Shown piece after piece: positions 38,556 to 42,807 of a DNA stretch of 64,000 nucleotides. Position 1 is the first letter of the stretch, and each line of letters begins with the position of its first letter. This DNA comes from Lentisphaera profundi. GTDB taxonomy: Bacteria > Verrucomicrobiota > Lentisphaeria > Lentisphaerales > Lentisphaeraceae. The stretch covers positions 1,984,001 to 2,048,000 of the forward strand of contig NZ_CP117812.1 of assembly GCF_028728065.1 (NCBI RefSeq). The letters are read 5' to 3'. A program made the translations under genes and the position numbers. The notes below the pieces were generated by a model. That model ran no database searches and was not told the DNA's origin. It worked only from the letters and a program-made list of their open reading frames with translations.

Positions 38556-38781
38556 AAAATATGCTTATATTTATTAGTTATTTATCTACAATCTCTCGAT
38601 CTTTCGACTTAATTCTCAAAAACTTAGTCCTAATTTTTGATAATACTAGATAAGAAAAAAAAGGGCCGATACCTCAAACCTCCGTTTGTGCAAGCCTTAA
38701 AAGGGCCGAATTGATAACTTTATCCGCTTTTTTTAAGCTTTTTGCCAGTTCCTGTAGACTCAAAAGGCACTTTACTACCTC

Positions 38782-38797
38782 ACACTAGATACAGTGT
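38782..38797. promoter_or_regulatory. NrdR box 1
   Basis: ACACTAGATACAGTGT, a near-palindrome matching the NrdR box consensus (acaCwAtATaTwgtgt type). It lies 31 bp (start to start) from box 2, the three-helical-turn spacing typical of NrdR operators. NrdR represses ribonucleotide reductase operons when dATP is plentiful; the nrdA gene lies downstream. Confidence 0.88.
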
Positions 38798-38812
38798 CTA
38801 TTTTCGGTACTG

Positions 38813-38828
38813 ACACTAGATATAGTGG
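38813..38828. promoter_or_regulatory. NrdR box 2
   Basis: ACACTAGATATAGTGG. It contains TATAGT (38821-38826), a plausible -10 box, so NrdR bound here would block RNA polymerase. If that promoter is used, the nrdA leader is about 250 nt long. Its spacing to box 1 is as expected. Confidence 0.88.
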
Positions 38829-39086
38829 TTTTGTTAAAAATTTGTTTTTTTTTGATTTTCCTAATATTTGACTATTGACCATTTTTCAGAGCATGATAAG
38901 CTTAATACGGGATGACCAGAGCTGTCAAAACTCTTCATAACTTTTCATCGCGAAAATCCGTTGTCAGTTAGGCTGACTATGAAGACTTTTTTCTTGCTAA
39001 AAGTCACCCATGCAACACGAAATCAAGCACTTAAAAAGAAACAGGCTTATTTTTAATAGCCATAAAAAGAAGAGAGCACAGGAACT

Positions 39087-41360
39087 ATGACTTCAAACAT
39101 CCAAGTCACAAAGAGAGATGGCACTCGCGAGCCAATCGATCTTGAAAAAATCCATCGAGTTATCGATTGGGCCGCAAAAGATCTAAACAATGTAAGTGTC
39201 TCTCTAGTAGAGTTACGATCACATGTCCAATTCTACGATGGTGTTACAACTGAAGACATCCATGAGACTATGATCAAATCCGCGGCAGATTTGATTTCCG
39301 AAGAGAGCCCCGATTACCAATACCTATCTGCTCGCCTAGCCATTTTTCACTTACGCAAAAAAGCATACGGCCAATTTGATCCTCCCCCACTTTTTGATCA
39401 CGTCACTAAATTAGTTGAATCAGGTAAGTACGATAAACATTTACTCGAAGACTACACCGAAGACGAATTCAACGAAATGGAAAACTCGCTTGATCACTGG
39501 CGCGACCTCAACTTCTCCTACGCCGCAGTTAAACAACTCGAAGGCAAATACCTCGTTCAGAATCGTGTTACTGGCGAGATCTACGAAAGCCCGCAATTTC
39601 TCTACATGCTAGTTGGCGCCTGCCTCTTCTCCAAGTATCCAAAAGAAACACGCATGGATTACATCGTCCGTTTCTATGATGCCGCCTCAAGCTTCAAGCT
39701 CTCCCTCCCTACGCCTATCATGGCGGGGGTACGTACGCCGACTCGTCAATTTAGCTCATGTGTATTAATCGAATGTGGTGACTCACTTGACTCCATCAAT
39801 GCCTCGGCTAGTGCTGTCGTCAAATATGTAAGTCAGCGCGCAGGAATCGGCCTCAATGCTGGTCGCATCCGTGCTCTTGGCAGTCCCATTCGTAATGGCG
39901 AAGCCTTTCACACTGGCTGCATCCCCTTTTACAAACACTTTCAAACGGCCGTCAAAAGCTGTTCTCAAGGCGGTGTTCGTGGTGGCGCTGCAACTGTGTT
40001 CTACCCTCTTTGGCACCGTGAAGTTGAGTCACTCTTAGTCCTCAAAAACAACCGTGGCGTTGAAGAAAACCGTGTCCGCCACCTTGATTATGGTGTTCAA
40101 TTCAACAAACTCATGTATGAGCGCTTAGTCAAAAAAGGCGATATCACCCTCTTCAGTCCTGGCGATGTCCCTGGCCTCTACGATGCGTTCTTCGAGGATC
40201 AAGATAAATTCGAAGAGCTCTACGTTAAATACGAAAACGATCCTACGATTCAAAAAGAAACAATGAAAGCGATTGAGCTTTTCTCACTCTTTGCATCAGA
40301 GCGTGCGAGTACAGGACGTATTTATCTGCAAAATGTTGATCACTGCAATACTCACAGTCCTTTCCAAGCCGACAAAGCTCCTATTAGACAAAGTAACCTT
40401 TGTCTAGAAATCGCTTTACCCACCAAGCCTCTAGAAAGTATCAATGACCCCAATGGCGAAATCGCACTCTGTACACTTTCAGCGATCAACCTTGGCGCCT
40501 TGGATAGCTTAGACGAAATGGAAGAGCTAACAGAACTAGCCGTCAGAGCTTTAGACAGTCTTCTTGACTATCAAGATTACCCTGTCGAAGCAGCTCGCAA
40601 CTCATCTATTAACCGCCGCACACTCGGCATTGGGGTCATTAACTTTGCTTATTACCTCGCTAAAAATGGTGTGTTTTACTCCAATGGCAGTGCAAATAGC
40701 CTCGTGCACAAAACATTTGAGTCACTTCAATACAACCTTATCAAAGCTTCCTGTAAATTGGCTCAAGAACTTGGCCCATGTCCTAAGTTTAATGAAACAA
40801 CTTACTCACAAGGAATCATGCCCACAGACACTTACAAAAAGACTGTTGATAGCTTTTGTAATGAAGAGCTCCAACTCGACTGGGACAAACTCGCTGCAGA
40901 CGTCAAAGAACATGGCATGCGTAATAGTACGCTATCTGCACTCATGCCTTCTGAGACTTCTAGCCAAATCTCTAATGCAACTAATGGCATTGAACCACCT
41001 CGTGGCCTCATTACTGTTAAGCAAAGTAAAGATGGCATTCTCAAGCAAGTCGTTCCTGAAATCGACAAGTATAAATCTTACTATGAACTCCTTTGGCAGA
41101 TGCCCAACAACACTGGTTACCTCCAGTTAGTTGCCATTATGCAAAAGTTCATCGACCAAACAATTTCTGCCAATACAAACTACGACCCCTCCAAATTTGA
41201 CGGTGGCATGGTTCCTATGAAAACACTTCTTACGGATATCCTCACTGCCTACAAATATGGCGTCAAAACTTTGTATTATCACAATACCCGCGACGGTGCT
41301 GGCGATAATCAAGAAGAAGAAGAAGACGACGACTGTGCTGGCGGCGCATGCAAAATTTAA
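39087..41360 (+). CDS. nrdA: Ribonucleoside-diphosphate reductase class Ia, alpha subunit
   Basis: 757 residues. An ATP-cone at about 5-90 allows activity control by dATP. The active-site region shows CVLIECGDSLDSINAS, CSQGGVRGGAATVFYP, SNLCLEIALPT and the C-terminal redox pair in CAGGACKI (Cys-x4-Cys). The sequence is very close in wording to enterobacterial NrdA. It reduces ribonucleoside diphosphates to deoxy forms using the radical from NrdB. It is followed 20 nt later by nrdB and then a ferredoxin, the gene order of gammaproteobacterial nrdAB-yfaE. Control by NrdR is indicated by two upstream boxes. Confidence 0.98.
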   Translation: MTSNIQVTKRDGTREPIDLEKIHRVIDWAAKDLNNVSVSLVELRSHVQFYDGVTTEDIHETMIKSAADLISEESPDYQYLSARLAIFHLRKKAYGQFDPPPLFDHVTKLVESGKYDKHLLEDYTEDEFNEMENSLDHWRDLNFSYAAVKQLEGKYLVQNRVTGEIYESPQFLYMLVGACLFSKYPKETRMDYIVRFYDAASSFKLSLPTPIMAGVRTPTRQFSSCVLIECGDSLDSINASASAVVKYVSQRAGIGLNAGRIRALGSPIRNGEAFHTGCIPFYKHFQTAVKSCSQGGVRGGAATVFYPLWHREVESLLVLKNNRGVEENRVRHLDYGVQFNKLMYERLVKKGDITLFSPGDVPGLYDAFFEDQDKFEELYVKYENDPTIQKETMKAIELFSLFASERASTGRIYLQNVDHCNTHSPFQADKAPIRQSNLCLEIALPTKPLESINDPNGEIALCTLSAINLGALDSLDEMEELTELAVRALDSLLDYQDYPVEAARNSSINRRTLGIGVINFAYYLAKNGVFYSNGSANSLVHKTFESLQYNLIKASCKLAQELGPCPKFNETTYSQGIMPTDTYKKTVDSFCNEELQLDWDKLAADVKEHGMRNSTLSALMPSETSSQISNATNGIEPPRGLITVKQSKDGILKQVVPEIDKYKSYYELLWQMPNNTGYLQLVAIMQKFIDQTISANTNYDPSKFDGGMVPMKTLLTDILTAYKYGVKTLYYHNTRDGAGDNQEEEEDDDCAGGACKI

Positions 41361-41380: not shown

Positions 41381-42511
41381 ATGAAGTATTCAATTTTCAA
41401 TCCGGTCGCAAATGACCCCCTCAAAGAACCCATGTTCTTTGGCAATAACGTGAATGTCTCACGTTATGATCAACAAAAACATCCTGTTTTCGAGCAACTC
41501 ATCGAAAAACAACTCTCTTTTTTCTGGAGACCTGAAGAAGTCGATCTCAGTCGTGATCGCTCGGATTTCAAAAAGCTCCCTCCCCATGAAAAGCATATTT
41601 TTCTCTCAAATCTTAAGTATCAAACGCTTCTCGATAGTATCCAAGGACGTTCACCCAACGTGGCTTTCCTACCTGTCATATCTATCCCGGAGCTCGAAAC
41701 TTGGGTAGAAACCTGGGCTTTTTCCGAGACAATTCACTCGCGTAGTTACACTCATATTATTCGCAATATTGTAAATGATCCATCAGAAATATTTGATGAT
41801 ATCGTCAATAATGAGAATATCATCCAGCGTGCATCTTCGGTCTCGCATTACTATGATAGCTTCATTGAATTACAGGGTTATTACAACCTTCTTGGCGAAG
41901 GCACACACATGATAAATGACGTCCCTGTAGTCGTCAGTATGCGTGAACTAAAACGCCGCTTATTTTTAACTGTTGTTTCCGTCAATGTTCTCGAAGCCAT
42001 ACGTTTCTATGTCAGCTTTGCCTGCAGTTTTGCTTTTGCTGAACGTGCGGTAATGGAAGGCAATGCAAAGATCATAAAGCTCATTGCCCGCGACGAAGCA
42101 CTTCACCTCACTGGTACTCAACAGATGATTCAAATTTTCCGCGATGGAAAAGATGACCCTGAGATGGCTGAAATTGCCGCTGAATGTGAAGGCCAAGTCT
42201 ATCAGATTTTCTCTTCTGCCGCTGAGCAAGAAAAAGAATGGGCGAAATACCTCTTCCGAGATGGCTCTATGATCGGACTAAACGCTGATATCCTCGGTGA
42301 CTATGTCGAGTATATCACTAATGTTCGCCTCAAAGCCTCTGGATATAAAAATGTCTTCCCTACGACTCAAAATCCACTTCCATGGATGAATAGCTGGCTC
42401 TCATCCGACGCCGTTCAAGTGGCTCCTCAAGAAGTTGAATTGAGTTCATATCTCGTCGGGCAAATTGATAACGAAGTCTCAGAAGATGCCTTCGACGATT
42501 TCGATTTCTAA
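41381..42511 (+). CDS. nrdB: Ribonucleoside-diphosphate reductase class Ia, beta subunit
   Basis: 376 residues. Iron ligands and the radical tyrosine are in the typical places: [18 protein letters not shown] (Glu, His, Tyr) and [11 protein letters not shown] (Glu, His). The C-terminal tail [12 protein letters not shown] binds the alpha subunit. It holds the diiron-tyrosyl radical needed by NrdA. Close similarity to the enterobacterial form runs over the whole length. It ends 2 nt before the ferredoxin gene. Confidence 0.98.
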
Positions 42512-42513
42512 GT

Positions 42514-42807
42514 ATGGCAAAAATTTACATAGAAGATAATTTGTGCTTCGAAGCACAAGGAAAAACTAGTCTCCTTGAAGAACTCGAAGCTCAAGACCTC
42601 GACGTGAATTACAGCTGCCGCTCAGGCTTTTGCGGCGCCTGCAAAGCCACTGTAATCAAAGGTGATGTCGAGAATACCGAATCTAGCATGTACAAACTTG
42701 CCAAGGACGAGATCCTCACTTGTTGTGCAAAAGCTATTGGCGATGTTGAACTTTCCTTCAAAGAAAAAGTAAATATCTTCCAATCTGCTTATGCACTCAA
42801 CATTTAA
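42514..42807 (+). CDS. 2Fe-2S ferredoxin (YfaE-like, NrdB cofactor maintenance)
   Basis: 97 residues. Cluster ligands are seen in YSCRSGFCGACKATV (Cys-x4-Cys-x2-Cys) and EILTCCAKA. In enterobacteria YfaE sits in the same place after nrdB and keeps the diiron-tyrosyl radical reduced and assembled, so the same role is likely. The start lies 2 nt after the nrdB stop. Codons near the start contain a perfect 18-bp palindrome (42541-42558). A strong terminator follows. Confidence 0.93.
   Translation: MAKIYIEDNLCFEAQGKTSLLEELEAQDLDVNYSCRSGFCGACKATVIKGDVENTESSMYKLAKDEILTCCAKAIGDVELSFKEKVNIFQSAYALNI

Follow-up and report, generated by a model that had tools for sequence, protein, structure and literature searches.

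The pair of NrdR boxes found upstream of nrdAB in the marine bacterium Lentisphaera profundi is very probably an NrdR operator serving the only ribonucleotide reductase (RNR) operon detected in this genome, at which a native repressor would control an apparently imported operon from sites just upstream of the probable promoter. The boxes lie within the window, i.e. the whole stretch of 64,000 nucleotides that was analysed, and positions without a prefix refer to it. The boxes and the genes that follow them are:
38782..38797, + strand: NrdR box 1, ACACTAGATACAGTGT (position, pattern match and pair score; counterpart in the congeneric genomes G001 and G002: ACACTAGATCTAGTGT)
38813..38828, + strand: NrdR box 2, ACACTAGATATAGTGG (31 bp from box 1; counterpart in G001 and G002: CCACTAGATCTAGTGG)
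39087..41360, + strand: nrdA, large subunit of class Ia RNR, gammaproteobacterial type (ORF, domain and family matches, NrdA relatives, tree)
41381..42511, + strand: nrdB, small subunit of class Ia RNR (ORF, domain and family matches)
42514..42807, + strand: YfaE-like 2Fe-2S ferredoxin, RNR cofactor maintenance (73.8 bits, marginally below the NCBIfam YfaE cut-off of 75 bits)

The box pair upstream of nrdA

An earlier note on this DNA had reported paired NrdR boxes at a 31-bp spacing upstream of nrdAB, and both 16-mers are indeed present, with a start-to-start distance of 31 bp, a 15-bp spacer and the gene order nrdA-nrdB-ferredoxin downstream of both. When scored against acaCwAtATaTwGtgt, which we take to be the NrdR consensus, the pair reached 39 of 44 (single boxes 19/22 and 20/22), while the runner-up in the window, at a spacing of 31 or 32, scored 30. 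None of 10 simulated genome-size sequences (order-3 Markov model trained on the window; spacings 31 and 32) contained a pair scoring at least 39, and the mean number of pairs at or above 37 was 0.1. The two boxes are also the only exact matches in the window to the degenerate single-box pattern, which with up to two mismatches gave 6 matches versus 4.86 expected (chance level). Taken as a pair, the nrdA boxes are thus far above chance. Single-box matches elsewhere in the genome were rejected as NrdR sites, since a genome-wide search with up to three mismatches yielded 84 matches versus 161 for the reversed pattern (both strands counted for palindromes), as expected by chance. With a 15-bp spacer the two centres are separated by about three helical turns, and the spacer falls within the range of 14–17 bp over which four tested NrdRs are reported to bind their boxes (PMC12051234). 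Between the boxes and a divergent M16C peptidase gene, AAAAGGGCCGA occurs twice at a distance of 40 bp (38659-38709), a repeat absent from G001 and G002.

The box pair precedes nrdA in five of the six genomes of the family (L. profundi, G001, G002, G004 and G005). The sixth, G003, has the same operon without a clear pair before nrdA (33 of 100 shuffles were as good as its best pair). In G001 and G002 the boxes read ACACTAGATCTAGTGT and CCACTAGATCTAGTGG, both perfect palindromes, and they have been kept while the surrounding DNA diverged. Among 86 nrdA upstream regions (six from the family plus 80 loci, two of which, L003 and L059, have identical upstream sequences), the best pair exceeded all 100 shuffles in 76. 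Sixteen RNR loci of other members of the class Lentisphaeria were also inspected, and in 10 of them at most 3 of 200 shuffles matched the best pair. Two others belong to genomes without a detected NrdR, G039 and G045 (105/200 and 171/200 shuffles as good), and four of the 14 loci from NrdR-bearing members had no convincing pair (best pair equalled in 9, 18, 50 and 200 of 200 shuffles), the gene start being possibly misplaced at some of these four. The ATG of nrdA lies 258 nt past the end of box 2, and the distance from boxes to gene is similarly long in G004 (about 350 nt) and G005 (about 344 nt).

The repressor and the origin of the operon

The earlier note had suggested a search for nrdR, and the 5.46-Mb genome (two contigs) was found to contain one intact copy (L001:1156-1626), whose 156-residue product contains a Zn-ribbon and an ATP-cone domain. 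A gap-free alignment with the solved NrdR chain 9fxk (E 3.4e-34), presumably that of E. coli, shows that this protein retains the Zn cysteines as well as two features, R17 and the RRRR stretch, that contact DNA in the structure of Streptomyces NrdR (PMC9110341). Position 15 is occupied by Glu instead of the Asp (specificity residue) present in Streptomyces NrdR and chain 9fxk; among the 27 sequences examined, Glu15 was seen throughout the family (six genomes) and in four further class members, and was therefore rejected as a family-specific change. Control of NrdR over its own gene was likewise rejected, as no good box pair was found at six nrdR loci (best pairs 24–30 of 44). The NrdR Zn-ribbon was found in 55 of the 59 genomes searched (L. 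profundi and relatives from the genus, family and class), and conservation of NrdR in the PVC superphylum has already been reported (PMC4989314), so that the extension of NrdR regulation to this lineage, as put in the earlier note, is not supported as a novelty.

The operon is the sole RNR detected in the genome by two family searches: there is one RNR barrel domain (PF02867), and the search for class III RNR (PF13597) gave no match. Among named sequences, that of Lentisphaera marina is nearest to this NrdA (95% identity); Colwellia sequences are ~79% identical. All six family genomes carry this nrdA, and class I-type enzymes of other class relatives match it at only 29–32%. A tree of 36 NrdA rows (six from the family, 26 picked from the 80 nrdA loci and an outgroup of four very distant rows) placed the six sequences of the family among gammaproteobacterial ones, with an unsure finer placement, as two of them group with Psychrobacter. 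One of the 26 selected rows comes from a metagenome bin labelled Verrucomicrobia (L130:1-680), whose nrdA is of gammaproteobacterial type (75% identity) and has NrdR-like boxes; this may reflect either a second transfer or faulty binning. The NrdR tree comprised 37 rows, i.e. 27 of the 55 lentisphaeral sequences found and 10 from gammaproteobacterial-type genomes (a protein search was positive in all ten of these genomes), and it placed the six family NrdRs on the lentisphaeral side, the other ten forming their own group with 100/99 support. Since NrdA falls among gammaproteobacteria and NrdR on the lentisphaeral side, the nrdAB operon appears to have been imported from gammaproteobacteria and the repressor to be native to the lineage; we infer the direction of transfer from these affinities.

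An imported operon may have brought its boxes along, and these could now be unused by the host. Gammaproteobacterial nrdA genes do have paired NrdR boxes too, and NrdA nests among them. Such a relic is nevertheless very improbable, given that a host NrdR exists, that in G001 and G002 the boxes were kept, both being perfect palindromes, despite change in the surrounding DNA, and that they differ from the common Colwellia-type boxes, CCTCACTATCTTGTGT with ACCCTAGATATTGTGC.

Promoter, leader and proposed mode of repression

Downstream of the boxes two further candidate elements were recognized:
38868..38902, + strand: candidate nrdA promoter, TTGACT-18-CATGAT (38868-38897) or TTGACC-16-TAAGCT, the -10 being preceded by TG (38875-38902)
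38933..38984, + strand: candidate structured leader RNA, stem CTTCATA/TATGAAG enclosing two hairpins (two compensatory pairs, three sequences)

The promoter of nrdA is probably located just downstream of the boxes, as sequence conservation across three close genomes suggests. The candidate element lies about 40–46 bp past the boxes and is conserved in the genus: TTGACC and CATGATAA are identical across the three Lentisphaera, and TTGACT is altered in G002. The promoter scan at 38868-38902 gave one match versus 1.4 expected, which by itself is at chance level; similar hexamers, picked by eye, occur 30–31 bp past box 2 in G004 and G005 and lend weak support. Because this conserved promoter-like element sits downstream of the boxes, the nrdA leader would be roughly 180 nt long, counted from the candidate promoter, and not the approximately 250 nt proposed earlier. 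That longer estimate goes with a -10 box inside box 2, from which NrdR would repress a promoter overlapping its own site, as described for Listeria, where NrdR boxes overlap the RNA polymerase site (PMC12051234). The letters TATAGT do stand at 38821-38826 and resemble a -10, but they have no -35 to go with them, the promoter scan lists nothing there and the hexamer reads TCTAGT in both G001 and G002, which makes this arrangement unlikely. The core reading of the nrdA boxes in the earlier note is sound, with two details, the -10 in box 2 and the 250-nt leader, left unsupported.

With the promoter placed downstream of the boxes, a scheme can be drawn that takes nucleotide sensing, binding and repression from other species and joins them to the boxes, their conservation, the nrdR gene and the affinities of NrdA and NrdR observed here. 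When dATP accumulates, NrdR loaded with dATP and ATP (or ADP) would assemble into a tetramer, grip both boxes across three helical turns and repress nrdA-nrdB-ferredoxin; when dATP drops, NrdR would be released and RNR made. Rather than covering a -10 in box 2, NrdR would bend and mask the region upstream of the -35. Streptomyces NrdR binds box pairs as a tetramer (PMC9110341). The repression predicted in the earlier note agrees with the presence of nrdR and of a canonical, conserved pair, but the effector described in published work for binding to box pairs is dATP together with ATP or ADP, and not dATP alone (PMC9110341, PMC12176259). In E. coli the RNR operons nrdHIEF, nrdDG and nrdAB are likewise preceded by two boxes with 15 bp between them (PMC12176259). 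The E. coli boxes lie in the promoter region, whereas in Lentisphaera the probable promoter is downstream of them, and, unlike in E. coli, repressor and operon have different affinities. A parallel for the promoter is nrdHEF of S. pneumoniae, whose -35 and -10 are both downstream of box 2, although that operator has a third box and its spacers measure 24 and 26 bp, against 15 bp between the two boxes in Lentisphaera (PMC12051234). Control of nrdAB by NrdR is a well-supported prediction, but of a known kind of regulation.

The leader might also add a second layer of control beside NrdR, through an RNA element at 38933-38984. This block has 28 bases invariant across three Lentisphaera species and a three-stem fold with two compensatory pairs, in which 98% of cells are paired versus 31–45% when it is slid; the fold of the L. 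profundi sequence has a z of -2.35. However, the alignment holds three sequences only and 60 of 500 column shuffles were equally good, the best fold of G001 lacks the outer stem (z -1.27, not significant), that of G002 is weaker than its shuffles (z 0.65), and no Rfam match at or above the gathering score was obtained. The block was also not found in the three family genomes beyond the genus, and it could instead be a DNA site, so we regard an RNA control element as conceivable but rather doubtful. One copy of the block with three mismatches occurs elsewhere in the L. profundi genome. A leader peptide was considered and rejected, as the frames present in the leader (judged by eye) are not common to the three species.

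A second box pair, upstream of fic

According to scans requiring exact core bases (by which pairs with core mismatches are missed), the only other strong pair in the L. profundi genome lies at C1:1716024-1716071 (L205:1336-1383) and ends 117 nt before a gene encoding a Fic protein. It scores 37/44 with a 16-bp spacer, and the corresponding pair in G002 (L206:2761-2806) scores 40/44 with a 14-bp spacer (spacing 30); none of 1000 shuffles equalled the pair in either case. The scans used spacings of 31–32 in six genomes and 30–33 in five of them (all except G003). Of the 31 loci scored in the six genomes, six reached at least 37, i.e. five nrdA and the L. profundi fic, and the next scored 35. Eight further matches from the scan at 30–33 comprised the G002 fic (40), one in L. 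profundi and two in G001 (not above 32 and 34, respectively) and four in G004, with upper limits of 35, 35, 37 and 38. Besides nrdA, fic is thus the sole scored match of at least 37/44 in L. profundi and G002, and the evidence for the fic boxes comes from these two species.

The encoded protein has a Fic domain with HPFGNGNGRTGR, which we take to be the FIC motif, and the class II inhibitory motif SARIEG. The closest relative of solved structure is 7XUX, i.e. CccR (370 bits over residues 2-375 of 379), and because this match spans nearly the full length, the C-terminal part, for which Pfam gave no match, is presumed to be a DNA-binding domain like that of CccR. CccR of Yersinia pseudotuberculosis combines Fic and DNA-binding domains and has the SARIEG motif in common with the Lentisphaera protein (PMC9755527). 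The G002 orthologue is 72% identical to that of L. profundi, and the 420 bp upstream are just 49% identical (192 of 393 aligned positions). G001 has merely weak Fic relatives, and among ten places with such weaker relatives in the family, six loci have no pair (28–31). Fic matches at or below 1e-40 were found in 4 of 387 genomes of the phylum, namely L. profundi, G002, G039 (56%) and G157 (interrupted by stops). G039 yielded no NrdR match, and its fic is not preceded by boxes (823 of 1000 shuffles as good); this genome, the sole one available for the NrdR-absence comparison, is a 96%-complete draft of about 140 contigs, in which nrdR may have been missed. Plasmid-borne fic relatives (49%) likewise had no box pair (741 of 1000 shuffles as good in Pasteurella, best score 27/44 in Photobacterium). 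Phage records contained Fic in 23 cases, all below 60% identity (31% for the best listed), and none was confirmed on viral contigs.

The fic boxes may be bound by the DNA-binding domain of Fic itself and be merely NrdR-like, an explanation that is possible and deserves some weight. CccR, the nearest solved relative, represses its own promoter through a two-part operator (PMC9755527). Its footprint, however, covers two inverted 10-bp repeats 26 bp apart, half-sites and a gap unlike the paired palindromes before the Lentisphaera fic (PMC9755527), and no such pair precedes the fic relatives in G039 or on the Pasteurella and Photobacterium plasmids. By contrast, TGTTA-type direct repeats with a spacing of about 23 bp precede all three lentisphaeral fic genes studied:
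L205:1278-1487, L206:2669-2888 and L213:2742-2782: TGTTA-type direct repeats before fic
As G039 is included among these, the repeats are possibly better candidates than the boxes for Fic's own site.

Binding of NrdR before fic may occur, as the conserved pair suggests. Whether NrdR controls the sole detected RNR operon and the class II Fic gene jointly, so that a drop in dATP would raise both, is in our estimation evenly balanced. NrdR has been described as an RNR-specific repressor (PMC9110341), the exception encountered in the sources consulted being topA in Pseudomonas (PMC4409342). The topA gene of P. aeruginosa resembles the proposed fic case in being an NrdR target outside RNR, but it carries only one box and is upregulated by NrdR (PMC4409342), whereas the Lentisphaera fic has a full pair. 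A literature search covering few subscription journals returned no paper joining NrdR with a Fic domain or AMPylation. CccR modifies FtsZ in E. coli (PMC9755527). Secretion and FtsZ modification are features of CccR, to which the Lentisphaera Fic is likened from its sequence, and a division checkpoint run by NrdR via Fic is speculation.

The nrdA operator adds a lineage to a well-known scheme, with a native repressor over an operon seemingly acquired from another phylum. Of the two sites, that at fic is the more significant and the part worth following. If true, a paired and conserved NrdR site before an AMP-transferase gene would link the sensing of dNTPs to protein modification, and if Fic modifies a protein of division or replication, as CccR does FtsZ, Lentisphaera may have a nucleotide-triggered pause in division during which the dNTP pool is refilled.
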